Assembly (NCBI GenBank): GCA_951813085.1 | Contig: OX638348.1 | Location: 1,807,627 to 1,871,626 of the forward strand | DNA from: an uncultured Opitutaceae bacterium | GTDB lineage: Bacteria; Verrucomicrobiota; Verrucomicrobiia; Opitutales; Opitutaceae | DNA length: 64,000 nucleotides | Direction: 5' to 3' | Shown: in pieces, positions 33,720-51,149 of the stretch | Layout of the letters: the number at the start of each line of letters is the position of its first letter | How positions within the stretch are numbered: the stretch's first letter is position 1 | Notes under the pieces: model-generated | What the model was told of the DNA's origin: nothing | The model's input: only the letters and a program-made list of their open reading frames with translations | The model's database searches: none | Position numbers and translations under genes: made by a program

Positions 33720-34814
33720 TCAGAGTCTTCCGGCTAGGCCCGGATGATTCGGATCGAGCTTATAAGCTCGGAACATTCTACCCAGTCCAGGGAAGTTATA
33801 ATCGAGCACACGCTCTCCTTCTGGCGTTACTTCAATCAATCGCTTGTTATGTGAATTGACGATTAGCGTGTTGCCATTGGGCAAACGGGACGCTCCGCCC
33901 ATAAATGGGGAATACCAGCTGTTTTTAGGCTCTGCGGTAAAGGTCCAGGTTCTTTCTCCTCCGAAGGGCTTTCCAGCTTCCTTGTCGTAACTCCCATCCT
34001 CGTTCATGCCGATATCAATTTCGACTATCGAAGAGAAGCGACTGCCAACCTGGAAAATGGTTTTGCCGACTACGCCATCGACAACTCCAGCAACATTATT
34101 GTGCACGGTGATATCTCCCTTGCCCGAAAGCCCCCGAGTCCAGCGCGCGTCATGCTGACCAACTAATTGCCTTTCGCTCTCCGGGCCTGAGTCATAAGCG
34201 GCTGGCATCCCCCATCGATAAATGAGATCGCCCCCCTTACCTTGTTTTCCACCCTTATCTGTCGCGGCCTCGGCTGTCGTTGTACTGTGATCAAGAACCC
34301 ATACTTCGCCAAACATCAGGCTGCTTAACAGGATCTGCCGCGTTTCCGGGTCATAATCGATTGAATTAAAGTGCAACTGGCGCGCTTGCATGGCGCGAAA
34401 GTTGAGATCTATTTTGCCCGGCTCATCTTTAATCACTCCGTAGTTTGGCTTGTCCGGGTCTACGTCCTGGACCACGTGATCCCAGGAATTCCATTCCCAG
34501 ACAATCTCCGTGCTGCCATCATCCAGATTCGGTTTTAGCTCCAGGATCTTCTCCATCCAGATGACTTCAGGCGATGGAGCATTGGGTCCTTGCCCTGCGT
34601 TAATTTGCGTGCGCGTCTTAGTCGGATCCCAGCCCATGGCTTTCACCGCATCGGCTGAAAATGCCTCGTAGGAGGTCACTAGGATATTCCCATTGGGCAA
34701 AGGCTCCATGTCGTGGTGCAGACTGTGTTTACCAATCTCGCACCGAATAAACTCCCATAGGACATTCCCATCCCAATCGACCAGTTGGACCCCGCCGTGA
34801 GCGCCCACTTCGAA
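33720..34814 (-). pseudogene. Arylsulfotransferase-like gene, 3' part split by island
   Basis: About 364 residues that begin at the island junction with 'FEVGAHGGVQLVDWDGN'. The pattern of propeller repeats ('LHHDMEPLPNGNILVTSYE', 'HFNSIDYDPETRQILLSS') and 'IYRWGMPAAYDSG' matches the ASST-like family. Its N-terminal half lies at 50158-51149 on the other side of the island. Joined directly at 34814/50158 the frame continues as '...HAHQ' then 'FEVG'. In the sequence as given it is fused in frame to the foreign fragment 34815-35186, which can create a false full-length gene of 488 residues. It is a close relative of the gene at 51641-53438. Confidence 0.8.
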
Positions 34815-35186
34815 GTGATCCATCATTCGGCTTAGTGAAGCTACAACATCAAGAGCTGTGATTTTGTAACCATTATGAAATTTAGCGTTCTCATTTAATA
34901 TAAAGGTAAGGGTTTTACCGTCCTTACTTGTGTTCCAAGATTTGGCAATTCCAGCTTGAACGCCATAAGATTCGGTGAATCGTAGAAGTCCTTCATAGAC
35001 AAGTTCTGAAAATATTAGAGAAGCCCCATCATTCATTTGGGCTGGATCATAAGTGACTGGCCTGGAGTACACCGCCTTGATGTAGGGAACCTCTACATGG
35101 TCAGTTTCAGGTTCAGATTGTTGGTGATAAAAACCTCCAATCGAAACAAGTGCAGTGAATGTTGTTCCAAGAACAATTTTTTTCAA
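34815..35186 (-). pseudogene. N-terminal fragment of SBP family 5 protein
   Basis: 124 residues: a signal segment then 'SRPVTYDPAQMNDGAS', 'EGLLRFTESYG' and 'LTFILNENAKFHNGYKIT', the start of an oligopeptide-type (SBP_bac_5) solute-binding protein. The remaining ~380 residues are absent because the island edge cuts the gene. It is not part of the downstream arylsulfotransferase-like protein, despite the uninterrupted frame. The host of origin is a different, AT-rich organism. Confidence 0.8.
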
Positions 35187-35614
35187 GCTTTCTCCCAGCG
35201 GTGTAATTAGCTATCTGCACAGTCTATAGGCAAGGCCCGTGCCAATTTGAAAATTTCGATACAGCAGGCAGTACAATCGTTTTAGAGGTGGATTGGCAAA
35301 TCGAGTCTGTAATATTTTCAGGTGTTTAAAGGGAAACAGGATATTTCGATACCAGTATGTTTGGAAATCGGGACTTTTGTTTAGAGTTTAATATTGCAAG
35401 TATGCAAAAAAATATTGCATGCAATATTTTTTGAAGCCCATAGCTTCCTTAATTTTTCATAAACCTTTTAAAAGTGGTGAAAACTCTCAAGTCTATTTTT
35501 GGCATTATGCTTCCTTATTATATCTGAGTGAGGGCTAAATTATAGCTTGTTATAACTAATTATAACTGGTTGAATATAGGTATTAAATTATTGTATTTAT
35601 TAAGGGGTTAAAGG
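35187..35614. promoter_or_regulatory. Island regulatory region with 26-bp palindrome
   Basis: The gap between the two divergent island genes. A perfect palindrome of 26 bases lies at 35407-35432, with core AATATTGCATGCAATATT flanked by A4 and T4. A partial copy (AATATTGCAAG) sits about 20 bases upstream. Nearer the operon, TTATAACT occurs twice within 20 bases. This is the likely promoter and operator region for the defence operon, plausibly bound by the HTH protein. Confidence 0.6.
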
Positions 35615-35812
35615 GTGACTGAGCCTGAACGATGGTATTCCGTCGAAGAAATTGCTTCTCACTTGGGTGTTTCCAAGGAAACCATTTATAGGTGGGTGGA
35701 AAAAGAAAAAATTCCTGCTCATAAGGTTGGCCGACAATGGAAATTTAGGGTTAGCGAAGTTGATGCGTGGGTTACAAATGGCAATGCCGATGAGCGGGGT
35801 GAGAAAAGGTGA
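35615..35812 (+). CDS. Excisionase-type helix-turn-helix protein
   Basis: 65 residues from GTG 35615, which follows AAGGGG at a good distance. It is a MerR/excisionase-type DNA-binding domain ('WYSVEEIASHLGVS', 'ETIYRWVEKEKIPAHKVG') covering almost the whole protein. Its stop overlaps the GTG of the helicase gene by four bases, so it is co-translated with it. In such operons this kind of protein is a candidate autoregulator of the restriction genes, rather than an excision factor, because no integrase is present. Confidence 0.8.
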   Translation: MTEPERWYSVEEIASHLGVSKETIYRWVEKEKIPAHKVGRQWKFRVSEVDAWVTNGNADERGEKR

Positions 35813-38772
35813 ACACTGCTTATCATGCAAAACTATTTGCTCATGAATTATCATTGGTTCAAGCTGGGGGTTCAGTTAATCGCCTTTCTCAGGCAATGTT
35901 TGATGCCTGTATTGACCTCAATCCTCACCAAATAAATGCAGCAATATTTGCTTTGAAAAACCCATTGAGCAAAGGGTGCATTTTAGCTGATGAGGTTGGT
36001 CTTGGTAAAACTATTGAGACTGGCCTTGTTCTTTCTCAGCTTTGGGCCGAGGGCAAGAGATCATTTTTAATCATCGCTCCTAAGTCACTTCGCCATCAAT
36101 GGAAAGATGAATTATCAAATCTCTTCTTCTTAGACAGCGAAATCATGTCAGGGCAAGACTTTAAGAAAATAAATAGTTCGGAAAAAGAAAATCCACTAAA
36201 TAGAAAAGAAAAAATAATTATTACAAATGAACATTCTGTAGATAGCTATCATGAAATTATAAAAAATGAAGATTGGGATTTAATTGTTATTGATGAAGCT
36301 CATAAGCTAAGAAATGTATGGAAAAAAGGAAAGAACGAAGCAAAGCGTGCTAAGCGAATCAAAGATACCCTTCAGCCATTTAAAAAATTACTTTTAACTG
36401 CGACTCCTATGCAAAATCACCTTATGGAGCTTTATGGACTTACAAGCTTTATTGATGAATATATTTTAGGAACAAGAGAAAGCTTTCAAAGCCTTTTTTG
36501 TAACTTGTCTGACTCCATTCGCGAGGAACGAATGATTGAGTTACAAAGTCGGATGAAAAGTTTCTTTAGAAGAGAGCTTAGGAAGAATGTTCTTGAGTAT
36601 ATTGATTATACTAATAGAAACACTCTTACCTTTACTTATGATCCTACAGACTATGAAGAAGAATTGCGGATCACCTTTGAAAATTTCCTAAGAAGAGAAG
36701 TTCTTATTTCTATCCCTGCTTCGGCCCTTCCATTATTAACACTTGTTTATTTGAAGCTTATAGCAAGTTCAACCTTTGCCATAAAGAACAGTCTTTTGAA
36801 CTTATACAAGAGACTTATTTTAGCAACTGTTTCAATAGGCAATAAGACTCTGTTTAATAGCTTGCTTGGTAATATTACAGAAAGTCTAACCCTTGGTGAT
36901 GGGAAAAAGTCAGACTCCTTGGAGAAATTTGAGAAAATTCTTTTTGGAGATGTTGTTACTAAAAATTATGAGGGATTAAAGAAGGTTTTCAAAAGCCATG
37001 ATCCGATAGAGGAAGTATCGACTGAAGAAACTGAGCTGAAGGACAATTATTCAGACCAAGATTTAGAAATTGAGGAAAGTGAAATTCAATTATTTAGTCC
37101 TGAAGAAATTCAAGATGAAGCAGAAATAATATTAAGAATGATCGTTTTAAGTTTGAAAATTGAGCAAAATAAAAAAGCCGATGCTTTAACACAACAATTT
37201 GAAAAAGCGAAAGTCGAAGGCTGGCCTGAAAAAGCCGCTATATTTACAGAATTTAGATCAACACAAGATTATATTCTAAGAAAGCTATCCGAAATGGGAA
37301 TCAATATTGAAAATGAAGTTGTTATTTTTAATGGTGATTCTGGTGACGCTGAAAGTAGAAGATTACTAGTAAAACAATTTAAAGAATCTAAAAAGATATT
37401 TTTAACAACCGAAGCCGGAGCAGAGGGTTTAAACCTACAGTTTTGCAACCTTTTAATTAACTATGATTTGCCATGGAACCCACAACGAATTGAGCAAAGA
37501 ATAGGTCGTTGTCATAGATATGGTCAAAAACTTGATGTGATAGTCGTAAATTTCGTTAACACTAAAAATGTTGCTGACTTAAGAGTTTTTGAGCTACTTC
37601 AAGAAAAATTTAGTTTATTCAAAGGAGCCTTTGGAGCTAGTGATGAAGTTCTTGGTGATATTGAAGATGGCCATGATGTTGAAAAGGAAATTTTAAAAAT
37701 ATACACATGTCGAACACAAGAAGAGATTGATAAGGCCTTTGAAAATTTACAAATAAAATCATCAAAACAGATTTCTGAGAAACTAAGCGAAACGAAAAGT
37801 ATCGTATTGGAGAAGTTTGATGAAGATGTACATTCAAAATTAAAAATGCAATTGGATGAAGCAGAAAAAAGGGTGGATAACATATCTAATATGTTTTGGA
37901 ACCTTACAAAAAGCACGCTAAATGAATATGCTGATTTCAATGATTCAAATTATTCTTTTGAATTAAAAGAGTCTCCATTTCAAGAAATTTCCCCCGGCCA
38001 GTACAAGCTTGGGGCATATAAGATGATCTCTAAGGGTCAAGAGAGAGGGGGTGATTTACATAGCTATAGATTAAACCACCCACTTGGGCAGAGAGTTATT
38101 GAGAGCGCAAAATCCTCTTGCCTCGAATTAGCTAGTCTGACGTTTGATTTATCTAGCTATGAAAATAAAATAACAGCCTTAGAGGATTATGTTGGCAAAT
38201 CTGGCTGGCTAGAAGTCTGCTTACTTAATGTTAGTTCACTCGATCACAGTGAAGAGATGGTATATGTTGGTATTACTGAAGATGGAGATGAAGTGCCAAC
38301 AGAAGTGACCCGTAAAATGTTTAACATTTATGCTTCGGCTTCCGATGATAGTGGAGAAGTTCCAAGCGAGATCGAGCAAAATCTTTGCAAACTTAAAAAG
38401 AAGGCAACATCTTTATATTTAAAAGAAATTGAAAAGCGAAATCATTCCTTTTTTATTGAAGAATCAGAAAAATTGGATAAGTGGAGCGAAGATATAAAAG
38501 AGGGCCTTGAGGTTGAGATAAAAGAACTTGATAAAGAAATTAAGAAAATGAAAAAAGATTCTAAAAACATTACTCTTTTAGAAGAAAAGATTAAGGTGCA
38601 GAGAGCGGCAAAAAATCTTGAAAAAAAGAGGAATGATATGAGAAGAAAACTTTTTGAAGAGCAAGATCGTATTGAAGAAGAAAAAGAGAAGTTAATTGAA
38701 GACATAGAAAAGAGAATGAAACTAGAACATAAAGAAAAAAATATCATAAAGATAAAATGGGAAATCGTTTAA
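35809..38772 (+). CDS. RapA/SNF2-like helicase of a restriction module
   Basis: 987 residues from GTG 35809. Helicase motif I is 'LADEVGLGKTIETG', motif II 'VIDEAHK', motif III 'LLLTATPMQN', and the C-terminal lobe shows 'FTEFRSTQDY', 'AGAEGLNLQFCNLLINYD' and 'QRIGRCHRYGQ'. The last ~250 residues form long charged helices ('EEQDRIEEEKEKLIEDIE'), a likely coiled coil. It translocates on duplex DNA as other SWI2/SNF2 enzymes do. It is translationally coupled to the HTH gene, and the methyltransferase follows 9 bases later. The combination suggests a multi-subunit restriction system, not a chromatin-type or RNA polymerase-bound RapA. Intact. Confidence 0.88.
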   Translation: MNTAYHAKLFAHELSLVQAGGSVNRLSQAMFDACIDLNPHQINAAIFALKNPLSKGCILADEVGLGKTIETGLVLSQLWAEGKRSFLIIAPKSLRHQWKDELSNLFFLDSEIMSGQDFKKINSSEKENPLNRKEKIIITNEHSVDSYHEIIKNEDWDLIVIDEAHKLRNVWKKGKNEAKRAKRIKDTLQPFKKLLLTATPMQNHLMELYGLTSFIDEYILGTRESFQSLFCNLSDSIREERMIELQSRMKSFFRRELRKNVLEYIDYTNRNTLTFTYDPTDYEEELRITFENFLRREVLISIPASALPLLTLVYLKLIASSTFAIKNSLLNLYKRLILATVSIGNKTLFNSLLGNITESLTLGDGKKSDSLEKFEKILFGDVVTKNYEGLKKVFKSHDPIEEVSTEETELKDNYSDQDLEIEESEIQLFSPEEIQDEAEIILRMIVLSLKIEQNKKADALTQQFEKAKVEGWPEKAAIFTEFRSTQDYILRKLSEMGINIENEVVIFNGDSGDAESRRLLVKQFKESKKIFLTTEAGAEGLNLQFCNLLINYDLPWNPQRIEQRIGRCHRYGQKLDVIVVNFVNTKNVADLRVFELLQEKFSLFKGAFGASDEVLGDIEDGHDVEKEILKIYTCRTQEEIDKAFENLQIKSSKQISEKLSETKSIVLEKFDEDVHSKLKMQLDEAEKRVDNISNMFWNLTKSTLNEYADFNDSNYSFELKESPFQEISPGQYKLGAYKMISKGQERGGDLHSYRLNHPLGQRVIESAKSSCLELASLTFDLSSYENKITALEDYVGKSGWLEVCLLNVSSLDHSEEMVYVGITEDGDEVPTEVTRKMFNIYASASDDSGEVPSEIEQNLCKLKKKATSLYLKEIEKRNHSFFIEESEKLDKWSEDIKEGLEVEIKELDKEIKKMKKDSKNITLLEEKIKVQRAAKNLEKKRNDMRRKLFEEQDRIEEEKEKLIEDIEKRMKLEHKEKNIIKIKWEIV

Positions 38773-38781
38773 GGGGATTTT

Positions 38782-40371
38782 ATGAGTCATAAGCAAAGAC
38801 TAGAACTGGATTGGGTTGGCAAAGATGAAGTTACTTATCTGGAGCCAAGGATTTTCGTAGAAGATGAAAATCTATCATATGGAAAGAATAGTGATCATAA
38901 CAAAATCATTAAGGGGGACAACTTACTGGCCCTTAAGGCCCTAGAGTCAAACTATAGTGGGCAAATTAAATGTGTTTTTATCGACCCTCCATATAATACT
39001 GGTTCAGCCTTTTCATATTATGAAGATGGACTTGAACATTCGCTCTGGCTATCTCTGATATCTGAAAGGTTAAATATATTAAGGAAATTATTGGCTGAGG
39101 ATGGTTCTATTTGGATTACATTAGATGACAATGAACATCCTTATTTACGTGTTTTATGTGATGAAATTTTTGGGCGATCTAACTTTGTTTCCAATCTCGT
39201 TTGGCAGAAAAGAGTAAGTCCTGCGAATGACGCAAAGTATTTTAGTTCTGACCATGATTATATTATTGTTTATGCTAAAGATAAAACTCTCTGGAAGCCA
39301 AATCGTTTGGAGAGAACAGCTGAGCAAAATAAACTATATAAAAATCTTGATAATGACAAAAGAGGGCCATGGAATTCTGTCACTTATACGTGCTCTAAGA
39401 ATAGTGATGAAAGGCCTAACCTATATTATGCAATAAAAAATCCTAATACAGGTGAAGAGATTTGGCCAAAGAAGACTGCTGTTTGGAAGTATGGACAGGA
39501 AACAACAATTGAAAACCTTAAAAACAACCTTTTATATTGGGGAAAGGATGGGAAATCCAAAAGTCCAAGATATAAAAAATTTCTATCTGATGTTGGGAAG
39601 GTCGTACCAAGGTCTGTTTGGAGTTATAGCGATGTGGGACATACGCAGGAAGCACAAGATGAAAGTAAAACGATCTTTCCAGATTCTCCATTTCCTACTC
39701 CAAAGCCAGAGAGGTTGTTAAAAAGAATAATTGAGATTTCAACAAATGAAGGGGATGTTATCTTGGATTCGTTTGCTGGTTCGGGAACAACAGGAGCCGT
39801 CGCACATAAAATGAATCGAAACTGGATTCAGATTGAACTTGGGGATCATGCGGAATCACATATTGTGCCAAGGATGAAGAAAGTTATTGACGGAAAAGAT
39901 GCTTTGAAAATTTCAGATGAACTAAATTGGAAAGGAGGAGGAGGTTTTTCTTTTTTTAATCTTGCACCTAGTCTGCTTAGAAAGGATGAGAGGGGCAATT
40001 GGATTATCAATGATGATTACAATGCCATTCAACTTACTGAAGCAGTATGCAAACATGAAAAATTCAAATTTCATCCAGATGAGAGTTTATATTGGAAGCA
40101 AGGCTTTTCGTCAGAGAGAGATTTTATTTTTGTAACGACACAATTTTTAACTTCAGAACACTTAGATAGTATTCAATCTCAAATGAAAAAGGATGAGTCT
40201 CTCTTAATTTGTGCAAAAGCATTTCGCGTAAAAAGAGATAAATATCCTGATATTACATTAAAAAAGATACCTCAGATATTATTAGGGCGATGTGAATTTG
40301 GAAAAGATGATTATAGCTTAAATATTATTGAGCCAATACAAGAAGAACTAGATATGAGCACGGAAGCTTAG
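38782..40371 (+). CDS. Type III-like adenine-specific DNA methyltransferase (Mod)
   Basis: 529 residues. Motif IV 'VFIDPPYNTGSAF' precedes motif I 'DSFAGSGTTGAVAHKM', the order of beta-class N6-adenine methyltransferases such as type III Mod subunits. The region between contains the target-recognition domain and the C-terminus is a helical extension. It starts at ATG 38782 after AAGGGG and overlaps neither neighbour. It would mark self DNA and give sequence specificity to the complex. Intact frame. Confidence 0.92.
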   Translation: MSHKQRLELDWVGKDEVTYLEPRIFVEDENLSYGKNSDHNKIIKGDNLLALKALESNYSGQIKCVFIDPPYNTGSAFSYYEDGLEHSLWLSLISERLNILRKLLAEDGSIWITLDDNEHPYLRVLCDEIFGRSNFVSNLVWQKRVSPANDAKYFSSDHDYIIVYAKDKTLWKPNRLERTAEQNKLYKNLDNDKRGPWNSVTYTCSKNSDERPNLYYAIKNPNTGEEIWPKKTAVWKYGQETTIENLKNNLLYWGKDGKSKSPRYKKFLSDVGKVVPRSVWSYSDVGHTQEAQDESKTIFPDSPFPTPKPERLLKRIIEISTNEGDVILDSFAGSGTTGAVAHKMNRNWIQIELGDHAESHIVPRMKKVIDGKDALKISDELNWKGGGGFSFFNLAPSLLRKDERGNWIINDDYNAIQLTEAVCKHEKFKFHPDESLYWKQGFSSERDFIFVTTQFLTSEHLDSIQSQMKKDESLLICAKAFRVKRDKYPDITLKKIPQILLGRCEFGKDDYSLNIIEPIQEELDMSTEA

Positions 40372-40379
40372 GGGTAAAA

Positions 40380-43085
40380 ATGAGTTCAAACATCAATTAT
40401 GTAAATCAACGGCTAAGTTTAAGAAAGCCTCAAAAGGAAAGTGTTGATATATTGTCCAAGCTCGTATCGAGTATTGAATTAAATAAAAATACAAAACTAG
40501 AAGATGCCCTTACTGCATTTAAAGGGTGTGGAGAGTTTGACAAGCTAATTGATTTTGAACGTGGTTTTCCTTCAGTCGCTTTTGCTCTCGCAACAGGGGT
40601 AGGAAAGACTAGGCTTATGGGAGCTTTTATTAGCTACCTATACAAAGAAAAAGGGCTACGCAACTTTTTAGTCTTGGCCCCTAATCTGACCATTTATAAT
40701 AAATTGATAACAGATTTTAGTAATACTGCGCACCCCAAGTATGTGTTTAAAGGAATACAAGTTGATCCAAGAGTTATTACTGGTGATAATTATTTAAAAA
40801 CAAACACTGTTAAGTATTCACAAAATCGTTTTGGGCAAGCAACATTATTTGAAGATGAAATTACTATTAATGTGTTTAATATTTCTAAAATTAACTCGGA
40901 ATCAAGGGGCGGTAAATCTCCCAAGATAAGAAAAATATCAGAATACTTTGGAGAGTCGTACTTTCAATTTTTACAAAATACTGAAGACCTCGTTCTCTTA
41001 ATGGATGAATCTCACCATTATAGAGCATCGAGAGCTATGGAAGTTCTAAATGAGTTAAAGCCAATCTTGGGCTTAGAGCTAACGGCAACTCCTACATCGA
41101 CTAAAGGAGTTCCCTTTAAAAATATTGTATATGAATATACTTTGGCCCACGCAATTAAAGATGGTTTTGTTAAAGAGCCAGCAGCAGCGACAAGAAAAAA
41201 CCTCACTAAAAAGCAGCTCAAAGATTTATCACCAGATGAACTTGATAAAATGAAGTTGCTAGATGCCATGCATGTGCATGAGATTACAAAAACAAATCTT
41301 GAAATATATGCAAGAAACTATAAAAAGCCATTAGTTAGGCCTTTTGTTCTAGTTGTAGCCCAAGACACGAAACATGCAGAAGAATTGCGTGCATTAATTC
41401 AATCAGAGTCTTTTTGTAATGGGCAGTATGCAGACAAAGTATTTGAAATACACTCGAATCAAAAAGGAACTGAAAAAAAAGAAAATATTCAAAAGCTTTT
41501 AGAATTAGAAAACCCCAAAAATAAATTTGAAATAGTAATTCACTGTAACATGTTAAAAGAGGGATGGGACGTTACAAACTTATACACGATTGTTCCTTTA
41601 CGTACATTTGCAGCTAATATTCTTACAGAACAAACATTGGGAAGAGGATTGCGGCTCCCATATGGTGAAATTACGGGAGTTCCAGAGGTTGATACTTTAA
41701 CAGTTATGGCCCATGAAAGTTTTGAAGACTTGATAAAGAAAGCAAATGATCAAAATTCAATAATAATGAAAGAGTACTTTATTGATCCAGATGATGACAT
41801 TTTCAAAAAGAATCAAGAGGTTGTTACAGCAGTTACTCCAGCAGAGGAAGAGTTTACTCAAAGAGAAGTTGAAATTGAAGCGATCAAAGATGAGTCAGAA
41901 AAGAAAGTCGAAACAGATAAACTTTCAGTGGAGAAGGAATTATTCAAGAGCTGCTTTAACAGCGATAATGTAATTAATGTTGAAGATTTATCAAAAATAG
42001 AAGTTAAAGAGAAATTAAAAAAAGCAATAAAAGAAAAGGCATCTCAGGGAACTATGTTTATTAATCTTGAAGAGGGACAGATAGACGAGGTGTTTGAGGA
42101 GAAATATAAAAAAATAACTGAATCAATTATTGAAAAAACAATAGAGATCCCAAGAATTACTATTCAGCTAAAGAATGACATTGAATTTGATTTTAAACAG
42201 TTTAGCCTTGATGTCAGCACAATGGCAAAATTTCCACCTGTCGAAGAAGAGATTTTTGTGCGTTATCTACAAGAGCAAAAAAAGACATTTACTCACTCTG
42301 TGACAAACGATAGTTCCACTGGTGAGCAAGGTTGGCTTAAAACAATTGTTTCTGAGCTACTAAATTATGACGAAATTGATTATGACGAGCATGGAGATTT
42401 GCTTTATCAACTTAGTGAGGAGGCCTTAAGCCACTTTAAATCTTATCTTGCAAAAGATTCTGAAATAGATAATATTGTTCAATATTATAGAGTTAAAATA
42501 GCGGAATTCATCTACGCTCAGATGATGGAAAACTTTTATTGTAAAACTGGCGAATTTGAAAACGCTGAGATTAAGCCATTCACAAGAATTGAAAACCATA
42601 ATTACAGCAAGTTCAAAGATGACAAAATATATGATTCCAGAGACCATGTTGCGACAAAAGCAGAGCTTACAAAAAGGGTCTTCGATTATTACAAGAAGTC
42701 ATGCCATACGCTGTACAAATTCGATTCTTTATCAGAGAAGGAATTTGCATCATCTCTTGATGAGGATAAAACTGTCCTCAGATGGTTAAGACCTTCAGTT
42801 AAGCAGTTTAATATTTATTGGGATCATCATTCTAGACTTTATGAGCCGGACTTTGTTGTTGAAACTGACAATGATTTATATCTAATAGAAGTAAAGGCAA
42901 GCAATGAGCTTGAAAGCCCTGACGTCATAGAAAAAGCAAAAGCAGCTCAGGAGTATTGTCGTGTAGCCACTCAGTATGCAAATGAGAATGGTAGAAAGCC
43001 TTGGTCTTATTTGCTAATTCCTCATGATGAGATCACTTCCACAAGAGATATGAGTTACTTTCAGTCTTTTTCCTATAAAGATTAA
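40380..43085 (+). CDS. Type III-like restriction subunit (Res) with PD-(D/E)xK nuclease
   Basis: 901 residues. Helicase motif I 'ATGVGKTRLMGA', motif II 'LMDESHHYR', motif III 'LTATPTST', then 'KEGWDVTNLYTIVPLRT' and 'TEQTLGRGLRLP' identify a superfamily 2 Res helicase. The nuclease is at the C-terminus: 'YEPDFVVETD' and 'LYLIEVKAS' give the PD and ExK residues. It cuts unmodified DNA together with the Mod subunit. The start ATG follows GGGG by about five bases and the Mod stop by eight. Intact. Confidence 0.92.
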   Translation: MSSNINYVNQRLSLRKPQKESVDILSKLVSSIELNKNTKLEDALTAFKGCGEFDKLIDFERGFPSVAFALATGVGKTRLMGAFISYLYKEKGLRNFLVLAPNLTIYNKLITDFSNTAHPKYVFKGIQVDPRVITGDNYLKTNTVKYSQNRFGQATLFEDEITINVFNISKINSESRGGKSPKIRKISEYFGESYFQFLQNTEDLVLLMDESHHYRASRAMEVLNELKPILGLELTATPTSTKGVPFKNIVYEYTLAHAIKDGFVKEPAAATRKNLTKKQLKDLSPDELDKMKLLDAMHVHEITKTNLEIYARNYKKPLVRPFVLVVAQDTKHAEELRALIQSESFCNGQYADKVFEIHSNQKGTEKKENIQKLLELENPKNKFEIVIHCNMLKEGWDVTNLYTIVPLRTFAANILTEQTLGRGLRLPYGEITGVPEVDTLTVMAHESFEDLIKKANDQNSIIMKEYFIDPDDDIFKKNQEVVTAVTPAEEEFTQREVEIEAIKDESEKKVETDKLSVEKELFKSCFNSDNVINVEDLSKIEVKEKLKKAIKEKASQGTMFINLEEGQIDEVFEEKYKKITESIIEKTIEIPRITIQLKNDIEFDFKQFSLDVSTMAKFPPVEEEIFVRYLQEQKKTFTHSVTNDSSTGEQGWLKTIVSELLNYDEIDYDEHGDLLYQLSEEALSHFKSYLAKDSEIDNIVQYYRVKIAEFIYAQMMENFYCKTGEFENAEIKPFTRIENHNYSKFKDDKIYDSRDHVATKAELTKRVFDYYKKSCHTLYKFDSLSEKEFASSLDEDKTVLRWLRPSVKQFNIYWDHHSRLYEPDFVVETDNDLYLIEVKASNELESPDVIEKAKAAQEYCRVATQYANENGRKPWSYLLIPHDEITSTRDMSYFQSFSYKD

Positions 43086-43238
43086 GTATAGGCTAACTCG
43101 ACTTTAGTAGAAGTAAGGCCTGTTCATTCCTGAATAGTAACGTCGGATAATGAATAAACAAAGTCTAATTATCTACAGTTACTAGACCTTTAGTTAAGAA
43201 ATCTTAAGTGTCGGTTTTTACTCAGATATCTTGTAAAT
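43086..43238. other. Gap after restriction operon
   Basis: Short AT-rich gap. No clear hairpin terminator is seen. It may hold the promoter of the secreted nuclease gene. Confidence 0.4.
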
Positions 43239-43736
43239 ATGACGATAAGAAACCATGAGATTTTTGGCTTTTTTCTATTGGCAATTTTGTCGCTGCCCAC
43301 CTATGCAGATGATTCATGCAAGCATGATGCAAGTAACTTCCGTTGTGTAAAATATGTAAGAAACTATGATGCCGACACCGTTACTTTCAATGTGACTAAT
43401 GTCCACCCTCTCATTGGGGAAAAAATCAATGTGAGAGTTAATGGTGTGGATACTCCTGAAATTCGCACAAAAAATAGATGTGAAAAACAGAAGGCTAGAA
43501 ATGCCAAGAAACTAGTGGCCAACTTATTCAAGAATGCTAAGCGAATAGATTTAGAAAACATACATAGAGGGAAATATTTTAGAATTGTAGCGGATATCAA
43601 AATTGATGGAAAATCCCTAACATATTATTCAATCAAAAATGGCCTTGCCTATTCTTATGATGGTGGGACTAAGAAAAAAATGGATTGGTGTAAATCATCC
43701 AGAGATATTGCATCTGAAAACATGGGTGGTCTTTAA
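43239..43736 (+). CDS. Secreted thermonuclease-like (SNase) protein
   Basis: 165 residues with a signal peptide ('FGFFLLAILSLPTYA'). The staphylococcal-nuclease fold shows 'YDADTVTF' and 'VNGVDTPEIR', holding the metal-binding Asp and active-site Arg, and a second conserved Arg in 'HRGKYFRIVADI'. It hydrolyses DNA or RNA outside the cytoplasm. Its stop overlaps the ATG of the DUF2779 remnant. Two cysteine pairs suggest disulfides. Confidence 0.85.
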   Translation: MTIRNHEIFGFFLLAILSLPTYADDSCKHDASNFRCVKYVRNYDADTVTFNVTNVHPLIGEKINVRVNGVDTPEIRTKNRCEKQKARNAKKLVANLFKNAKRIDLENIHRGKYFRIVADIKIDGKSLTYYSIKNGLAYSYDGGTKKKMDWCKSSRDIASENMGGL

Positions 43737-43878
43737 TGAGCAAACCAAGGTATTTAACAAAATCAAGGTTCAAGCTTGGAATCGAGTGCCCAACAAAACT
43801 TTTTTTATGCAGGGGAAAAAATATCCAGATCGAAAAATGGATGACTCATTTTTATCTGTATCCAAAAAAGGTAGCTAA
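43736..43878 (+). pseudogene. 5' end of a DUF2779 gene
   Basis: ATG 43736, overlapping the nuclease stop, begins 'MSKPRYLTKSRFKLGIECPT', the start of DUF2779 proteins (predicted nucleases of defence islands). Two one-base expansions in runs (seven T near 43800, four G near 43812) break the frame; repaired it reads on as 'GKKYPDRKMDDSFL' to 43878. The middle of the gene is replaced, and its C-terminal end lies at 44995-45345. Confidence 0.6.
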
Positions 43879-44166
43879 TTATCGGCCAAACCAGTAATAC
43901 GGTATGTCGGACTCACTTGGATGGGAAAGTATCATCAAATTTATTATTGGAAATAAAAATATTTCCCACCCCTTAGTATAATACTCACCCGAAATCTCGT
44001 CTAGCCAATCGTTTATTCTGGTTTTTTGAAAGGTAAGTAAATTCAGGATCTCACAGCAGAAAAGATAAAATGAAGAAAGATAAAATCCCAGCAAAATCAT
44101 GGCAACCGGTAAGCCAAAAAGGAGCAACAGAGGTATAGATATCAGAGTCAATATAAAATCAAGCAT
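43879..44166 (-). CDS. Small membrane protein of unknown function
   Basis: 95 residues. The first ~45 are strongly hydrophobic ('FILTLISIPLLLLFGLPVAM', then 'ILLGFYLSSFYLFCC'), giving two likely membrane helices, and 'IFLFPIINLMIL' may be a third. It lies antisense within the interval that separates the two ends of the DUF2779 gene, so it came with the inserted DNA. No family is recognised. Confidence 0.4.
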   Translation of the reverse strand: MLDFILTLISIPLLLLFGLPVAMILLGFYLSSFYLFCCEILNLLTFQKTRINDWLDEISGEYYTKGWEIFLFPIINLMILSHPSESDIPYYWFGR

Positions 44167-44660
44167 AATAAATAAGTTATTAGCACTTTTTATGCCAAAG
44201 CCTCAGCCATTTTAATAGCCCTCAGAATGATTACACTGATCTTTTTTTCACTCCTGACTAAATTATAAGCATCCCAAAAAAGATAATTTAATGCTCAATC
44301 TCTGCTAAGGCTCCTTTTGTAGAAGGTTTTTGCAGTTTGTGAGGTGAAGCTAGTAGCACCTAGCTAGATACTAAGCCTGAATGCACCATTAAAAAATTTA
44401 GCCCACGATTAGCATTTGCGACGAATTTTGATCCAAGCTCACCACTTGTCACAACCTTGTGTCGAAAATTTAAGTCATCAGATACTATTATTGTACAGGA
44501 TTTTGTGAATTTCAATGCTCAAAAGATGACGAATCTAATGGATTAAAAAATGGTTTCAAAGAATATTGGGGAACATCTTTGAAATAGACTGATGCAGATT
44601 TCGATGAAGCAACCGTTCTTGATATTTGGAGCTTTAGAAGAAAAGACAATTTCATCCAAT
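44167..44660. other. AT-rich stretch, no gene seen
   Basis: No frame with codon bias is seen on either strand. It is part of the DNA inserted in the DUF2779 gene. Confidence 0.4.
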
Positions 44661-44699
44661 CTTGCGATAAGGCGCGCGTTTGCAAGCTCTAATGGGATT

Positions 44700-44915
44700 G
44701 AAGGCAAATTGTAGACGATCCAGAAGCAAGTGGGGGTATGGGGGTACCCCCCATAAAGGCAAAATCGGATTAAAAGCAAATTTTGGCCTAGTCCGGGGCC
44801 TAATCCATAGCGTTTTTGTTTTGGGAACAAAAACGCTATGGAGTCCCGCATTTTTTATTTCCATGCCCTGCAGCGTCATTTTTTTATGTAAAAGGCGTTT
44901 TTTGGGTTGACGCCT
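44700..44915. repeat. Cluster of three inverted repeats
   Basis: 44737-44755 is a near-perfect palindrome around GGGGGTACCCCCC. 44804-44842 is a hairpin with a perfect 17-bp stem (TCCATAGCGTTTTTGTT) and 5-base loop. 44893-44915 pairs AGGCGT with ACGCCT. Such clustering is uncommon and GC-richer than its surroundings. Possible readings are a structured RNA, a recombination site or a replication origin of the inserted element. Candidate ORFs here are by-products of the repeats. Confidence 0.55.
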
Positions 44916-44994
44916 ATGAAATACATATTTTTTAAAGGGGTTGTCTGAACGGCAAACCATAACCATAAGATGGGAAGATAAAAATATCTGATAT

Positions 44995-45345
44995 TAAAAA
45001 GATTGACATATCACCATCCCAAGATCAGAAAGAAGGACTAAAGAGCTTGAATTTGAGAATTGGAAATGGATTGAGACTGAAAATGGGAGATTGTTGATCC
45101 ATAATAAATGTCTCCCAAAAATGTTTTAAGATGTCTCTGACAAGAACATGAATATTCTGTCGGAAGATGATGAGTTGAGAAATGGTGGTGCTGCATTAAC
45201 CGCTTATGGTAAAATGCAGTTCATAGAAATAACTGATTATGAGAAAGATGAGCTTTGCAAAGCTTTATTAAAATATTGTGAATTAGATACTTTTGTCATG
45301 GTGATGATTTATGAGGCTTGGCGAGAGATAGTAAAAGAAAATTGA
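44995..45345 (+). pseudogene. 3' end of a DUF2779 gene
   Basis: In one frame 'ENWKWIETENGR' and 'CLPKMF' are followed by TAA, then 'NGGAALTAYGKMQF' and 'LLKYCELDTFVMVMIYEAW', the conserved C-terminal motif of DUF2779 proteins with its nuclease-type 'YCELDT'. The internal stop and missing upstream part show that it is dead. It lies 14 bases before the SIR2 gene. Confidence 0.75.
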
Positions 45346-45359
45346 ATTGAGGAGATCAA

Positions 45360-46560
45360 GTGCAAAAATTTGACTTAATAAGAGAGGTAAAGGAATTAAA
45401 AAACCAATTGTCTTACGCTAAAAATATTGGTTTTTTTATGGGGGCTGGTTGTTCATGTGCACTTAGGATTCCCAACATTGTTCAGTTAACTGAGGAAGTT
45501 GACAAATCTCTTGAAGGAGAGGAGAAGATAAACTTCGATAAGGTAAAAAAAGATTTGTCTGAGTCTAACGTCGAGGATAAGCAGGTTAATATAGAAGATA
45601 TATTAAATCATGTAAGACGAATTAGAGAAATTACTTCCGAACAAAAAGACAAGAAATATATAGAGATAAATGGCGAAAAGGCTAGAAACTTAGATATTAA
45701 AATCTGTAAGCATATATATGATATTCTTTCAAAAAAAGAGGGAGAAGCAGATTTTAAAATCACAAAGCAGTTTTTAGCGTGGTTCACACATGCAAAACAG
45801 GGATTATTCAAAAGAGATTTTCACAACAAATTATGATTTAATAATTGAGAAGGCTCTTGAAGAAATGCAAATTCCATACTTTGACGGATTTGTTGGTTCC
45901 TATGAACCATTTTTTTGGCAAGAAAGTATTGATAAATTTATTTCAAAATCAGATTTGACACAAAATTGGATTCGTCTTTGGAAGATACATGGCTCTTTAA
46001 ACTGGTTTTGGAAGAAAAATACCAAGTTAAATACCCACAGAGTTATTAGGGCAGGGAAATTTACTGAAACAGAGGGCGATGGTCATGAGTTGGTAATATA
46101 TCCATCAAAAGAAAAATACGATTCGTCAAGAAAGCAGCCCTTTATAGCTTACTTTGACCGATTTAAAAATTATTTATTGAATGGTGAACTATTATTCTTT
46201 TTTTCTGGTTATTCATTCTCCGACGAGCACATAAATGAGATTATCTTTAATAGTTTACGACAAAATAACCGCCTTTCGATTACAGTTTTTTTATATAATG
46301 ATGTTGAAGTGGAAGACCTATCCAAGGTTTCAGCACCTTATTTAAATTTAACTGTGTATGGCCCAACTAAAGCTATCATTAATGGAGTTTTGGGAGAGTG
46401 GCAATTTGATAAGGATATTTGCAAACAAAATGAAAAATCTGACTTGTACTGGGACGAAAAGGAAAAAAATTTCTTACTGGGTGATTTTGTAAGGTTGGTA
46501 ACATTCTTTATTTCAAATTCAAATAAGGAGATTTCTATTGAGGAGAATATAAATGGATAG
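45360..46560 (+). pseudogene. SIR2-domain protein of SIR2-HerA pair, frameshifted
   Basis: The start is a GTG at 45360 preceded by GGAG. The first frame has the NAD-binding 'FFMGAGCSCALRIP', and the second frame, from about 45790, has 'FTTNYDLIIEKAL', 'IHGSLNW' and 'FFFSGYSFSDEHIN'. The shift of one base near 45788, at 'cacacatgcaaaac', joins them into about 400 residues, the family length. SIR2 domains of this sort deplete NAD on phage infection. If the shift is real the pair is inactive; it could be a single sequencing error. Its end overlaps the HerA start by eight bases. Confidence 0.85.
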
Positions 46561-48325
46561 AGATATAACATTTCTAGGTCATGTTATACGGGTTGACTCG
46601 GGTGTTGTTGAAGTAGAGGTAACAGATTCACTTCCATCATCTGCTCCCATTATTAACGGTCGATTATATAAAATAGGTCAGATTGGCACCTTTGTAAAAA
46701 TGCCTATAGGCAATATAAATATTTATGGAATAGTTTCTTCAGTGAGCAATTCACCAAGTAGAGATGAAGAGAATCATGTTAAACAGCTTGTGGGGTCAAG
46801 ATTTCTGTCTGTGCAGTTGATTGGAGAAAAAATAGGTGATGATGATTTTGAGAAAGGAATCGGAACCTATCCTACAATCAATGATGAAGTACACATAGTT
46901 GTTGAAAAAGATTTATTTGATATTTATGGCCAAAAAAAATCTGGATCAATTGAAATAGGTAAGCATTCTTCATCTGAAAACTTAGGCGTCAATGTTGATC
47001 TGCATAATTTGATTCTTCGCCATTCCGCCGTGGTAGGTTCTACAGGTAGTGGGAAGTCTAATACGATAGTTAGTGTTTTGAAGCCAATATTAAATGATTA
47101 TGATGGCTCAAGGGTGGTATTAGTTGATCCTCATGGGGAATATGCATCTGCATTTCCAGATGCGAAAGTGTTTAAAATAAATGACCTGGCAAACCCTCTC
47201 GTTATTCCTTTTTGGCTGATGAACTTTGATGAATTAGCGTTCTTTTTGGTCGGAGCTAACCCAGAAGATGACCAAAGAGTTGAATATCGTATGTTTCGTG
47301 AGCTTGTTCAAAATTACAAGAAAGAAAATTGTGAATTAAAGTCAGGACAAGTTAATAAAAACTTTGTAACAGCTGACTCGCCAATACCGTTTAATATACG
47401 GAAATTGTGGCACGAAATGAACTGGTGGCTTAATGCGTCCTTTTCTGAATCAGTGAAAGATAAGCAAACAAAAACAACAGCAAAAGTAAAATGTATTGGT
47501 AACTTTGAAGATTTGATTGGCTCATCCTTTGAACCTTATGCAATGGGTCAAGAGGCACCATATAAATCTAAACATATGGATTATTACTCTTACGAAAAGA
47601 AATTATTGGCTCGGCTAAAAGATTCTAGATATGATTTTTTATTTAATCCTAGGGATTATAAAGATGAGACTTCTCTGAAAGACCTTCATAATCTACTGAA
47701 TGGATGGATTGGAGGAAAGGAAAAATTAACAATTCTTGACCTAAGTGGTGTTCCCTTTGAAATTTTAGATATTACTGTTGGCCTTATTACTCGATTTATT
47801 TATGACTCAATGTTTTGGGGAAGAGATGAAGAGTATACAGGAAAGAAAAGGCCTCTGCTTTTGGCGTATGAAGAGGCACATGTTTATTTGAATAAGAATG
47901 AAAATAATAGCTACTCAAAGAGAGCAGTAGAGAAAATCTTTAAAGAGGGGCGAAAGTTTGGGGTTGGAGCGATGATTATTTCGCAAAGGCCATCAGAAAT
48001 TTCAGAAACTATCTTGGCTCAAGTGGGAACTTTTTTAGCATTAAGATTAACCAACTCTTCAGACCAGTCTATTGTGAAATCTAGTGCACCTGACAATTTG
48101 AATAGCCTTATGGACTTGTTGTCTTCCTTGAGAATTGGAGAGGCGGTAGTTGTTGGTGAATCTATTAAGATTCCTTCACGAATTAGAATCAAATTAAACA
48201 ATCCTCGCCCCTCAAGTGAAGATCCAAAATTAGTTGAAGCTTGGAGCAAAGATCATACAGAAAATGAAGATAATTACAAAAAAGTGGTAACAAATATTAG
48301 GGAACAAAAATTTAAGGGGAAGTAA
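46553..48325 (+). CDS. HerA-like ATPase of SIR2-HerA defence pair
   Basis: 590 residues. An N-terminal HAS-barrel-like region (about 1-110) is followed by Walker A 'VVGSTGSGKSNTI' and Walker B 'LLLAYEEAHVYL', with 'IISQRPSEIS' and an arginine-finger region ('EKIFKEGRKFGVGA') after it, as in HerA/FtsK hexameric translocases (DUF87). HerA forms a hexamer that assembles with SIR2 to sense and act on phage DNA. Start ATG 46553 overlaps the SIR2 end; the KTSC gene overlaps its stop (TAATG). Intact. Confidence 0.9.
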   Translation: MDRDITFLGHVIRVDSGVVEVEVTDSLPSSAPIINGRLYKIGQIGTFVKMPIGNINIYGIVSSVSNSPSRDEENHVKQLVGSRFLSVQLIGEKIGDDDFEKGIGTYPTINDEVHIVVEKDLFDIYGQKKSGSIEIGKHSSSENLGVNVDLHNLILRHSAVVGSTGSGKSNTIVSVLKPILNDYDGSRVVLVDPHGEYASAFPDAKVFKINDLANPLVIPFWLMNFDELAFFLVGANPEDDQRVEYRMFRELVQNYKKENCELKSGQVNKNFVTADSPIPFNIRKLWHEMNWWLNASFSESVKDKQTKTTAKVKCIGNFEDLIGSSFEPYAMGQEAPYKSKHMDYYSYEKKLLARLKDSRYDFLFNPRDYKDETSLKDLHNLLNGWIGGKEKLTILDLSGVPFEILDITVGLITRFIYDSMFWGRDEEYTGKKRPLLLAYEEAHVYLNKNENNSYSKRAVEKIFKEGRKFGVGAMIISQRPSEISETILAQVGTFLALRLTNSSDQSIVKSSAPDNLNSLMDLLSSLRIGEAVVVGESIKIPSRIRIKLNNPRPSSEDPKLVEAWSKDHTENEDNYKKVVTNIREQKFKGK

Positions 48326-48537
48326 TGGAAAGACAACTAGTAGAATCATCAAATTTAGCCTCCATAGGTTATGATCCAGAAACGTCTACATTAGAAGTTG
48401 AGTTTAATAATGGGGCTATTTGGCAATATTTTGATGTGCCAGAATCTGTTTGGCATGAGTTTGAATCATCTGAATCCAAGGGGAAATTCTTTGGCCAAGA
48501 AGTAAGAGGCCAATATAGCGAATCACAAGTTGGTTAG
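48325..48537 (+). CDS. KTSC-domain protein
   Basis: 70 residues. 'SSNLASIGYDPETSTLEVEF' and 'YFDVPESVWHEF' match the KTSC domain, a small fold named for its resemblance to the C-terminus of some lysyl-tRNA synthetases. Its ATG overlaps the HerA stop (TAATG), so it is co-translated with the SIR2-HerA pair. Function is unknown; it may be a regulator or nucleic-acid-binding accessory of the defence system. Confidence 0.85.
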   Translation: MERQLVESSNLASIGYDPETSTLEVEFNNGAIWQYFDVPESVWHEFESSESKGKFFGQEVRGQYSESQVG

Positions 48538-48542
48538 TTTTC

Positions 48543-49219
48543 GTGAGAAATGTATCAAGAAGCTCACCTTGCCCTTGTGGCTCAGGAAAAACTGCTTGGA
48601 TAATGTTATTGAATTTCCTAAGAAGGATGGATTTAAAGGGGAAGGTCTAAAAAGTGCCTCTGATATTCTTGAAGTGGTAAGGGTAATTTTGAGCAAAGGG
48701 AATTTACTTCAATTGATGAAATGAACGAAGAGCTTCAATTATTTAGTGCAAATCAAAACTCTATCCCGAAAATCACCATTTCTTGGACTTGCTCCTGATC
48801 ATATTCATAAAATAATTTATAGTCCTTTTGGGTTGAATAATGGGATTTTTGGTTTTTTCTTCAAAAATACGGTTAAATTGAAGAAGGTTCCTTTCGTTGA
48901 GCAAGCTCTTTATATAATGACTAAACTTAAAGAGGCTGGGCAATTAAAAGCAACCCAAAAAGGTAATTTATCAAAGGCCTTCGTCATTGAGCTATATCAC
49001 CAGTTTTATTCAAATGAGCGTTATGCTCGTTTGCCCAATAAAGAAGATGATATGCCTGAAGTCACAGGGTTAAAACATATTTTGGATACGGCTGGATTAA
49101 TTAAGAAAAGAGCTAATAAATTTTCTCTTACCAAAAAAGGAGAGAAGATAATTGATGGTGAAAAAATATCAGAATTGTTTGATGTTTTGGTTGGCACTTT
49201 ATTTAATAAGTGGAATTGA
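48543..49219 (+). pseudogene. SEC-C motif protein, several frameshifts
   Basis: From GTG 48543 one frame gives 'RSSPCPCGSGK', the zinc-binding SEC-C motif. The next frame continues with 'NCLDNVIEFPKKDGFK', a third with 'FTSIDEMNEELQLFS', and the last ORF (48746-49219) with 'FLGLAPDHIHKIIYSPFG' and a helical C-terminal part. Together they form a SEC-C-headed protein of about 220 residues. Three or more frame changes show that the gene is decayed. It follows the KTSC gene by five bases. Confidence 0.65.
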
Positions 49220-49229
49220 GGATATAGTG

Positions 49230-49551
49230 ATGGATATTCTGAATTAACATTGATTCAGACAAGTGCTATTTTTAACTTTTATTTATTGAAAAAGATGGCT
49301 CAAGATTGTGGGTTTTAGATAAAGAACTTGGTGAAATATACCTCAACGCATTTCCAGCATTAATAAATGAGGTTGCAGACAGCTATTTTGGCTCGGAACA
49401 AGAAATTATCAACTGCTTTTGTGTACGATTTCTTGATAGAGTTTGCCTTCCGGTGGGGCTACTAGAGTCAAAAGAAGAGGGCAAAATTTTAGAGCAAAAA
49501 GTGTTTTATAAGGTAACGCTTTTTTTCAAAGAATTATTCAAGTTTTTTTAG
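49230..49551 (+). pseudogene. Broken small ORF, unknown family
   Basis: Two frames join: the first reads 'YSELTLIQTSAIFNFYLLKK', the second continues 'LGEIYLNAFPALINEVADSY' to 49551. No single start codon leads into both. I do not recognise the family. It converges on the next, minus-strand, small gene, with which it overlaps by four bases. Confidence 0.35.
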
Positions 49552-49787
49552 TTGCTTTCATGGTTGGTCATTTTTTTAGTAAAAGCCTCTAGCGATGGAA
49601 GCCCTTTTTGAACTTTGATAAGGACCTCTTTTTTTACTTTGTTATTAATAATATGAAGTGAGCCAGAGCCAAGTATCACTGAAAAAATTATTGCAAGAAT
49701 TATCTCAATTATCGCACGTATGATTTGCCTCCTAGTTTTGGTTGCGGTTGATGATGTCTCCAACCGTTGTTTTATTCCATTTTCCAC
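49548..49787 (-). CDS. Small single-span membrane protein
   Basis: 79 residues from ATG 49787. A basic start ('KQRLETSSTATKTRRQI') is followed by one membrane helix ('IIEIILAIIFSVILGSG') and a charged tail. It overlaps the end of the recombinase-like fragment by 56 bases. No family is recognised. Confidence 0.45.
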   Translation of the reverse strand: MENGIKQRLETSSTATKTRRQIIRAIIEIILAIIFSVILGSGSLHIINNKVKKEVLIKVQKGLPSLEAFTKKMTNHESN

Positions 49788-50157
49788 CCAGCTTTGATGG
49801 AACCTTTTTCTCGTTTAAGTAATTTGCTATGGCCCTGAATGAGAGGCCTTTATTGCGAAGAGTTATTATCTTCCTGATAACTTTTTGTTCTTCTTTACGA
49901 GGGGCACATTTACCACCAACGAGCTTTTCCCCAAATTTGAGATTTGGTGCTTTTCTACTTTCTTTTGATAGGTCTAGGATTCTCAATGCATCACTAATGC
50001 TAGTTCTAGACCATCCAGAAATTTCGGCAATCTGATAGCTCGACAGGTCTTCTTCAATATAGAGCTTCCTTAAAAGTTCCTCATTTTGAATTGGCGTTGA
50101 AAGGTAGTGAAAAGCCAGTATAATAAGGCTTGAGTAATTATTATCAACGGATGAGGA
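49732..50157 (-). pseudogene. Recombinase-type DNA-binding fragment at island edge
   Basis: About 141 residues beginning at the island border. Two helix-turn-helix regions are visible: 'SSYQIAEISGWSRTSISDAL' and 'LSFRAIANYLNEKKVPS', the latter with 'GGKWNKTTVGDII' as in the C-terminal part of large serine recombinases and related proteins. No catalytic resolvase domain is present, and the native start is lost. In the given sequence it is fused in frame to the arylsulfotransferase-like N-terminus, making a spurious 388-residue ORF. Confidence 0.65.
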
Positions 50158-51149
50158 CTGGTGCGCGTGGCATCTTCCTTCCTCCATCATCAGCCAGTCA
50201 TCTGGGGCGGTATTTCTTAGGAGCAATCCATTATCGAGCAAATACGATCCCGAACCTTCAGGCATTCCCTCCCGGTTGTGCTCCCACTTGTGCACGACCT
50301 CACCCTTCGAATCCAACAAATAGGTGTCGCTTGCCATCTGCAGGTCGGAAGCGACGTTGACTTCACTAAACAGGGTGTATCCGGAATAAGCCCGATCGTC
50401 TTCGCCAGGCATAATCGCATCGGTGACTTCCGGATTATTCAGCAACACGGCCAGAGATCCCTCGATCATGCCACCGGGGAGTTGACGGAAACGAACAAAC
50501 TCCTCCATCAATGATTCACGAACATCTTCGGGCAGACCCTCAAGCCGTTCAGACATGGCATTTCGCATCATTTCGTCCCGGTTCATGCCTTCGCCATTCA
50601 TTCGTTCCCGCATAAGCTCCCTCATGCGTTCCCGGTCCATCCCTGGCTGGTTCATGCGTCGTTGCCGGCCAGATTCTACATCCCTTTCCCCGGTATCACC
50701 AACTGCGACCGCTCCGTAAGCGCCGCCCCCGGGGCGGCGCACTAGGGTGGCGTCGAGCAACTCTTCAATAACCAGTTTCCCATCATCATTAATATCCAGC
50801 CTTTTAAGCTGATCAATGGATCCTTCGATCTCCTCGGGTGAAGTGACATATCCGCGTTCCGGTCGATAACGCGGATTGCGGTTTGGAGCCTCACCCATCC
50901 AGGAAAAGGCCCAGGACCACCCAATTCGGATTCAGAAATAGCGCCGTCTTTATCGCCATCAATTGCCAGCAGGGCTGTTCGCGCAACATTCATTTCCATT
51001 GCGTCAACTACCTGATCGCTGTTAGAATCCAATGCCCTCATTATCGGCGTGCCATACCAATAATCTAAATTCTGAGCATTGGCATCAATATATATGAGAG
51101 CTAAAGGTAGCGCTAAAAAATGAGCCAAAAATAATTTATTGATTTTCAT
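50158..51149 (-). pseudogene. Arylsulfotransferase-like gene, 5' part split by island
   Basis: ATG 51149 begins a signal peptide ('KLFLAHFLALPLALIYIDANA'). Then come EF-hand-type calcium loops ('DSNSDQVVDAMEM', 'DGDKDGAISESEL', 'DINDDGKLVIEEL'). A frameshift near 50898 splits the first and later EF-hands. The frame then enters the arylsulfotransferase-like part ('SDTYLLDSKGEVVHKWEHN'), which is cut at 50158 by the island. The rest is at 33720-34814. Whole, the protein would be about 695 residues with calcium-binding N-terminal repeats. Confidence 0.75.

Follow-up and report, generated by a model that had tools for sequence, protein, structure and literature searches.

A low-GC defence island of very probable Bacteriovoracales origin within an ASST-like gene of an Opitutaceae chromosome

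The interrupted gene and the ends of the island

The window (the whole 64-kb stretch of DNA analysed, from a host genome assembled as one contig of 4.85 Mb) contains an arylsulfotransferase-like (ASST-like) gene on the minus strand that is split by a low-GC block. The 3' part of the gene lies at 33720..34818 (within ORF 33720-35186; Pfam Arylsulfotrans / Arylsulfotran_2) and the 5' part, with an EF-hand-like N-terminus (Pfam EF-hand, below the cut-off), at 50191..51149. A reading made from the sequence alone (hereafter the sequence-only reading) had described a defence island that interrupts one ASST gene with both halves present, and the low-GC block and both host parts were found. With its ends corrected, the island spans 34827-50182 (15,356 bp) and is flanked on each side by an 8-bp direct repeat that reads TCCATCAT on the plus strand (34819-34826 and 50183-50190). 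On the minus strand the same repeat reads ATGATGGA and is present in both joints; two random 20-bp stretches of the window flanks have an 8-mer in common by chance in 0.27% of 20,000 trials. The GC content of the island is 0.349 versus a sampled host mean of 0.523 (sd 0.037; 400 one-kb windows from 20 evenly spaced chromosome stretches), with five of the 400 host windows lower than 0.40, four of which fall in a single patch carrying restriction-type genes. In 1-kb windows the island ranges from 0.32 to 0.39 and the flanks mostly from 0.50 to 0.61, with a single flank window, at 51 kb, of 0.40.

The joints were compared with relatives from a panel of 129 donor-order genomes, which belong to the same order as a Halobacteriovoraceae MAG; the NCBI lineage of this family gives that order as Bacteriovoracales. 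The right boundary had previously been placed at 50157, with 50158-50182 (the 'EGRCHAHQ' region) given to the host. Donor relatives keep matching past 50157, and these 25 bases are therefore donor and not host: on the inner side of the right edge 33 of 40 bases match G359 and 31 of 40 match G447, and on the outer side only 8 and 9 of 40, respectively. An HAHQ-like stretch also occurs in donor relatives, and the earlier 'HAHQ|FEVG' joint has to be replaced; flanks joined across one repeat copy read ...LLLRNTAPDDWLMMDHFEVGAHGGVQLVDW..., with the ASST frame kept. At the left joint, donor SBP genes part from the window sequence after CGAATG. Because the donor relatives read ATG at the left joint and TGGTGGA at the right, the 8-bp repeat may represent microhomology, target duplication or part of each; with the donor's own bases taken from these relatives, a target site may have been duplicated over 0 to 8 bp.

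That no host sequence was lost, as claimed with the support of a paralogue, holds only to within a few codons; the paralogue loop is poorly conserved and does not fix the joint. The relatives are distant (43-46% identity for the best relatives of the 3' part, among 56) and the loop variable, and a few host codons may have been lost at the joint. An ortholog of the host gene above 46% identity, with which an empty site could have been compared, was absent from the 56 relatives, and the same insertion from 10 genus relatives. The statement that the ends carry no inverted repeat holds, as no such pair was found (seed 12, minimum length 18); that they carry no target duplication is weakened by the 8-bp direct repeat at the joints. 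Both ends had likewise been read as cut genes; only the left gene is clearly cut, and the right gene keeps an ATG, the island stopping there at the edge of a repeat unit. The 64-kb window has no tRNA gene, the insertion site being within the ASST-like gene.

The 5' part of the host gene carries a frameshift of its own close to 50.9 kb (ORFs 50742-51149 and 49732-50898). This frameshift (50742-50898) and another in the neighbouring paralogue (52377-52621) may mark pseudogenes or may be errors in the assembled sequence. With two host genes nearby affected in this way, single frameshifts within the island could be sequence errors as well.

Defence cargo and a host-type repeat

The first cargo genes form an HTH-helicase-Mod-Res operon on the plus strand, with an HTH_17 excisionase/controller-like gene (35615..35812; Pfam HTH_17, E 1.6e-19), a DrmD-like SNF2 helicase (35809..38772; PADLOC DrmD, E 3.5e-159), a type III methyltransferase, Mod (38782..40371; PADLOC MTase_III, E 1.6e-184), and a type III restriction subunit, Res (40380..43085; PADLOC REase_III, E 6.4e-173). 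Type III restriction-modification is thereby represented by adjacent Mod and Res genes. The operon is collinear with that at L032, a locus of a Halobacteriovoraceae MAG, with identities of 61, 72, 58 and 70% for HTH, DrmD, Mod and Res, and it is probably still working as a restriction system. The HTH_17 protein gave weak HTH_Tnp matches, to DNA-binding parts only.

Further plus-strand genes encode a staphylococcal-nuclease-like protein (43239..43736; Pfam SNase, E 7.7e-8), a SIR2-like protein (45360..46560), a HerA-like ATPase (46553..48325; PADLOC HerA, E 4.9e-159; Pfam DUF87 and HerA_C) and a KTSC-domain protein (48325..48537; Pfam KTSC, E 1.1e-25). The SIR2-like gene is split by a frameshift into two ORFs that match consecutive parts of PADLOC SIR2 PDLC04093 (positions 1-147 and 146-390 of 395), and the SIR2-HerA pair is thus not intact, HerA being open. 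A decayed winged-helix gene follows (48599..49513, plus strand); it is 47% identical (tblastn) to its G380 relative, which is intact at 502 aa, and departs from it by in-frame stops and a change of frame. Open frames are kept by the helicase, Mod, Res, HerA and KTSC genes; those damaged are SIR2, the winged-helix gene, a DUF2779-type gene in pieces and the cut SBP gene, and part of this decay could predate the transfer. The nuclease, SIR2, HerA and KTSC genes found no match in the selected donor-order stretches; their composition suggests that they came in the same donor block.

The decayed DUF2779-type gene (43736..45345, plus strand) was traced by tblastn with the intact gene of G400, whose 667-aa protein carries Pfam DUF2779. 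The remaining pieces, which contain in-frame stops, lie at 43736-43872, 44498-44659 and 45025-45339. For the last of them identity is 72% with G400 and 65% with a gene of G007, a genome of the host's own genus, which makes the donor of this gene less certain. The gene is interrupted by a dispersed repeat of host type (44659..44893, plus strand), related sequence being present in four other clusters on the same chromosome (12 further matches at E<=0.1, near 29.6-30.0, 1298.8-1299.3, 3904.7-3906.9 and 4517.5 kb; cluster flanks GC 0.40-0.64). The island copy matches these clusters at 78-100% in blocks of ~20-80 bp, in largely similar order, and is partial; among the host clusters themselves the matching stretches are longer, at 76-98%. 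The repeat was found in none of 37 host relatives, and the 129 donor-order genomes gave no convincing match (best five candidates per genome). Two donor-order matches were recorded, one being the DUF2779-type gene itself and the other, in G369, 24 bp within a coding gene, which was taken as chance. Judged from these sequences, a repeat belonging to this host chromosome seems to have entered the island. The host dispersed repeat (L182, L183, L184, L185) has palindromes, and the L182 and L183 copies lie beside methyltransferase-like genes.

Donor-type ends and the Rec-TM79 unit

The left end of the island is the 5' stub of a donor SBP_bac_5 transporter gene (34827..35186, minus strand; Pfam SBP_bac_5, profile positions 2-50 of 368), cut at the joint. 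The stub is 85-86% identical to the intact transporter gene of G370 and has matches in 41 of the 129 donor-order genomes (E<=1e-8), the five best at 85, 79, 78, 75 and 74% over residues 1-122. As the gene has an open frame of 513-517 aa in G370, G380 and G407, the left island end lies inside a normally intact gene. A local host rearrangement was rejected as its source: no SBP remainder was found, and the host's four other SBP_bac_5 matches (of five) span nearly the whole profile.

Relatives of the HTH_17 gene, 89% identical in G380 and 74% in G407, adjoin SBP in both genomes. In G380 the order and strands are those of the island, namely SBP(-), HTH(+), winged-helix gene(+), TM79(-) and Rec(-), with a type I restriction system between HTH_17 and the remaining genes, where the window has helicase-Mod-Res. 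Between SBP and Rec, G370 and G447 carry a heavy-metal-type ATPase and a multicopper oxidase, among others. With different cargo between SBP/HTH_17 and Rec from genome to genome, this part of the chromosome resembles a hotspot whose content varies. The whole block was seen in no single donor-order genome; in the SAT1401 genome that has the closest operon (L032), the SBP relative is only 31% identical.

Inside and outside, which the sequence-only reading had proposed to compare in GC and k-mers, differ in both. The tetranucleotide distance of the island is 0.097 to the donor order and 0.602 to the host, with ranges of 0.075-0.102 for six donor chunks and 0.074-0.267 for 20 host chunks, each chunk being contained in the reference with which it is compared. 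Elsewhere on the host chromosome, a second patch of low GC (L210:7082-11702) has genes of 1009 and 534 aa beside a truncated-looking nuclease/helicase gene; from their motifs we take the two to be methyltransferase-type restriction genes. The patch has no DNA match to the donor-order stretches compared. Over 4.2 kb it is as donor-like in tetranucleotides as an island piece of equal size (0.173 vs 0.175), so composition alone names no donor.

The assignment comes from gene order and from close relatives of the two end regions and of the restriction operon, and by this evidence the island almost certainly originated in Bacteriovoracales, the order of Bdellovibrio-like predators. Plasmids were rejected as a source: 14,686 island bases compared with 72,556 plasmid records returned one 28-bp match, and the best protein matches were 50% for Mod (best 20 of 874 records) and 36% for SBP (best 20 of 770). 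Viral contigs were also rejected, with no match for HerA and two distant loci for Res.

The right end of the island is occupied by two partner genes on the minus strand, a Recombinase/ParB-HTH gene, Rec (49732..50190; Pfam Recombinase PF07508 and HTH_ParB; 81-83% to G359), and a gene for a small membrane protein, TM79 (49548..49787; a 36-residue stretch is 86% identical in G380). Rec has matches in 47 of the 129 donor-order genomes (E<=1e-8; best 83% in G359). Its ORF encodes 152 aa, compared with 154-203 aa for the open frames of the ten top-scoring relatives, and its ATG lies within the 8-bp repeat and so possibly consists of host bases. Against PHROG, Rec matched an integrase over positions 253-308 of 651 only and gave weak invertase, HNH and regulator matches; no catalytic domain was seen with the Pfam and PHROG profiles, the matches covering DNA-binding parts only. 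The earlier statement that the island has no integrase is borne out, as no catalytic integrase or transposase domain was found among the island proteins scanned (some small ORFs lie outside the scan). TM79 adjoins Rec in nine of ten short Rec loci (L135-L144), and within the stretches taken 28 copies of the Rec-TM79 unit were counted, spread over 15 donor-order genomes.

Edge alignments placed a conserved outer edge of the unit at 50153..50189 (minus strand), which coincides with the island end. Similarity upstream of Rec starts at TGGTSG. Of 19 copies compared (the window copy and 18 relatives), 16 have the TGG at an equal distance from a protein-based anchor; the remaining three, those of G359, G447 and the window, have it 13 bases nearer. 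The distance being counted from a protein-based anchor, the place of the edge is not fixed by the motif alone. The alignment comprised 18 of the 28 copies, anchored by eye on a TGG also picked by eye, and left out G379, G385_55, G407_52, four of G441, G461_51_7426, G461_53 and G461_8_5584. In an identity profile of 11 copies, one each from 11 of the 15 genomes, the first six bases of the edge have a mean pairwise identity of 0.93 and the preceding 20 bases one of 0.29; a CGAAC block ~25 bases inside the edge is also well conserved. A loose fixed pattern, applied without a chance control, detected the edge in 25 of the 28 copies. The edge motif was seen at the right island end only, and we estimate that a random break in the hotspot would fall within three bases of the edge about once in a thousand.

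Units form arrays near variable genes, with five copies in ~20 kb in G441, three in G380 and several in G461 (loci L147/L148, L129/L130/L145 and L149-L153). Some arrayed units have hairpin-like facing copies of the edge (GTTCGTCCAGC...GCTAGACGAAC). An integron-like attC reading of the edge was discarded, since a hairpin ending in GTTGGGC was present in G461 alone and not in the other copies inspected. Rfam gave no match in nine loci.

Proposed arrival of the block in the host

Overall, the island is best explained as a fragment of a Bacteriovoracales hotspot captured by microhomology-based joining, with a probability of about 0.75. The source would be a hotspot between an SBP_bac_5 transporter gene and the repeated Rec-TM79 unit on a Bacteriovoracales chromosome, and the right end of the fragment would have been produced at the unit edge. 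The block would then have arrived in the host as linear DNA and been joined at ATGATGGA in the ASST-like gene, without detectable host loss, by microhomology-based end joining that does not require Ku. Ku-type end joining was rejected, as the host has no Ku match; the control search was positive in Bacillus subtilis only (14 controls). Short identities that could have served at the joints are those of donor edge TGGTGGA with window TGATGGA and of donor SBP CGAATG with host ATG. After arrival, host repeat DNA would have replaced part of the DUF2779-type gene, and the HTH-helicase-Mod-Res operon would have stayed open. For microhomology joining as the mechanism, taken by itself, we would offer even odds.

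An end lying exactly on the unit edge is not expected of a random fragment and speaks for a more directed mechanism. Rec-TM79 could have driven a site-specific or transposition-like event in which the edge (TGGTSG...CGAAC) is the recognised end and the other end is cryptic or arbitrary (one-ended); the 8-bp repeat would then be a target duplication or common core. Conservation of that edge across copies, the recurrence of units in arrays next to variable genes and the 8-bp direct repeat are all consistent with this, but Rec has DNA-binding domains only, no transposase is present among the island proteins scanned and the SBP-side end has, by eye, no visible likeness to the unit edge. We therefore hold such an event to be rather unlikely, and it is somewhat more doubtful still that Rec-TM79 is an undescribed mobile or recombination unit, with a precise edge and an arbitrary other end, that moved a predator defence hotspot across phyla. 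An ordinary integrative element or mobile genomic island, which had recombined as a circle into the chromosome at a short core, would also suit the direct repeat at both ends (itself perhaps microhomology), the defence cargo and the excisionase-like HTH_17 gene near one end. This origin is improbable: neither integrase nor relaxase was found in the proteins scanned, the window has no tRNA, and the left end falls inside the normally intact SBP gene and not at any known element end.

The sequence-only reading had left the choice between a real insertion and a chimera, and the evidence now favours the former. A chimera, formed by assembly, ligation or amplification from the DNA of two organisms in one sample, would account for the cut gene at the left end, the wholly retained donor-like composition and the lack of the same insertion in the 10 genus relatives. 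The earlier case for a chimera from the state of the ends is weakened by the direct repeat at the joints and by the fact that only one end clearly cuts a gene, the other stopping at the unit edge. Moreover, the contig exits the host and returns to it at one and the same 8-bp sequence, a host-type repeat lies within a decayed island gene, and the joints have at most 8 bp in common, which we infer to be too short for an assembler overlap. The argument from the repeat is tempered by the absence of its family from the 37 host relatives and by the partial nature of the island copy. Nevertheless, with the repeat inside the island and the return to the host at the same 8 bp, we are confident that the insertion in the host chromosome is real, and consider a chimera highly improbable.

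Foreign linear DNA can be captured illegitimately at microhomology, as in natural transformation. The island resembles such captures in its short identities at both joints, the lack of an integrase and the one cut gene, and differs from them in its length of 15.4 kb, its passage across phyla, the absence of detected host loss and the end on a repeat-unit edge. With defence islands and integrative islands it has in common the grouping of restriction, SIR2-HerA and nuclease genes; unlike integrative islands, it has no integrase that we could find and no tRNA site, and it includes part of an ordinary donor transporter gene. It also differs from DDE transposons in having no terminal inverted repeats and, among the proteins scanned, no transposase.

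The sections of PMC5760749 on 'region B' of Halobacteriovorax marinus describe a chromosomal hotspot with alternating defence cargo and with a TonB receptor and a hypothetical protein at its borders; in strain SJ, site-specific recombinase and phage regulator genes stand there beside a type I restriction system. Region B belongs to a member of the same taxonomic order as the proposed donor, and its content in strain SJ is much like the HTH and type I restriction genes of G380; its bounds are not SBP and Rec. The paper concerns genes entering the predator lineage and treats it as unsettled whether genes are acquired from prey; PMC3539863 concerns transfer into Bdellovibrio. In the titles and abstract openings of the predator-prey transfer literature we found no case of transfer out of a predator. 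Gene flow into predators has been discussed already, and a whole chromosomal block leaving a predator lineage did not appear in those titles and abstract openings. With a donor order that can be traced, joints that are defined and a host repeat that seemingly came later, the present case gives an ordered chain of events; it also draws attention to the sharply edged repeat unit of predator hotspots, which is open to direct test. It is a guess that the host is prey of such predators.

The DrmD-like helicase, Mod and Res recall both DISARM (DrmD) and type III restriction-modification. Unlike DISARM, the island has no drmA, drmB or drmC among the ten proteins scanned, the DrmD-like protein being the only one with a drm model as its best match. 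At least 11 of 80 loci, counted among the best 30 of the 80, have this trio of helicase, Mod and Res; they come from several phyla and include L032-L037 and L041-L045, and this recurrence suggests a variant of type III restriction with a dedicated helicase.
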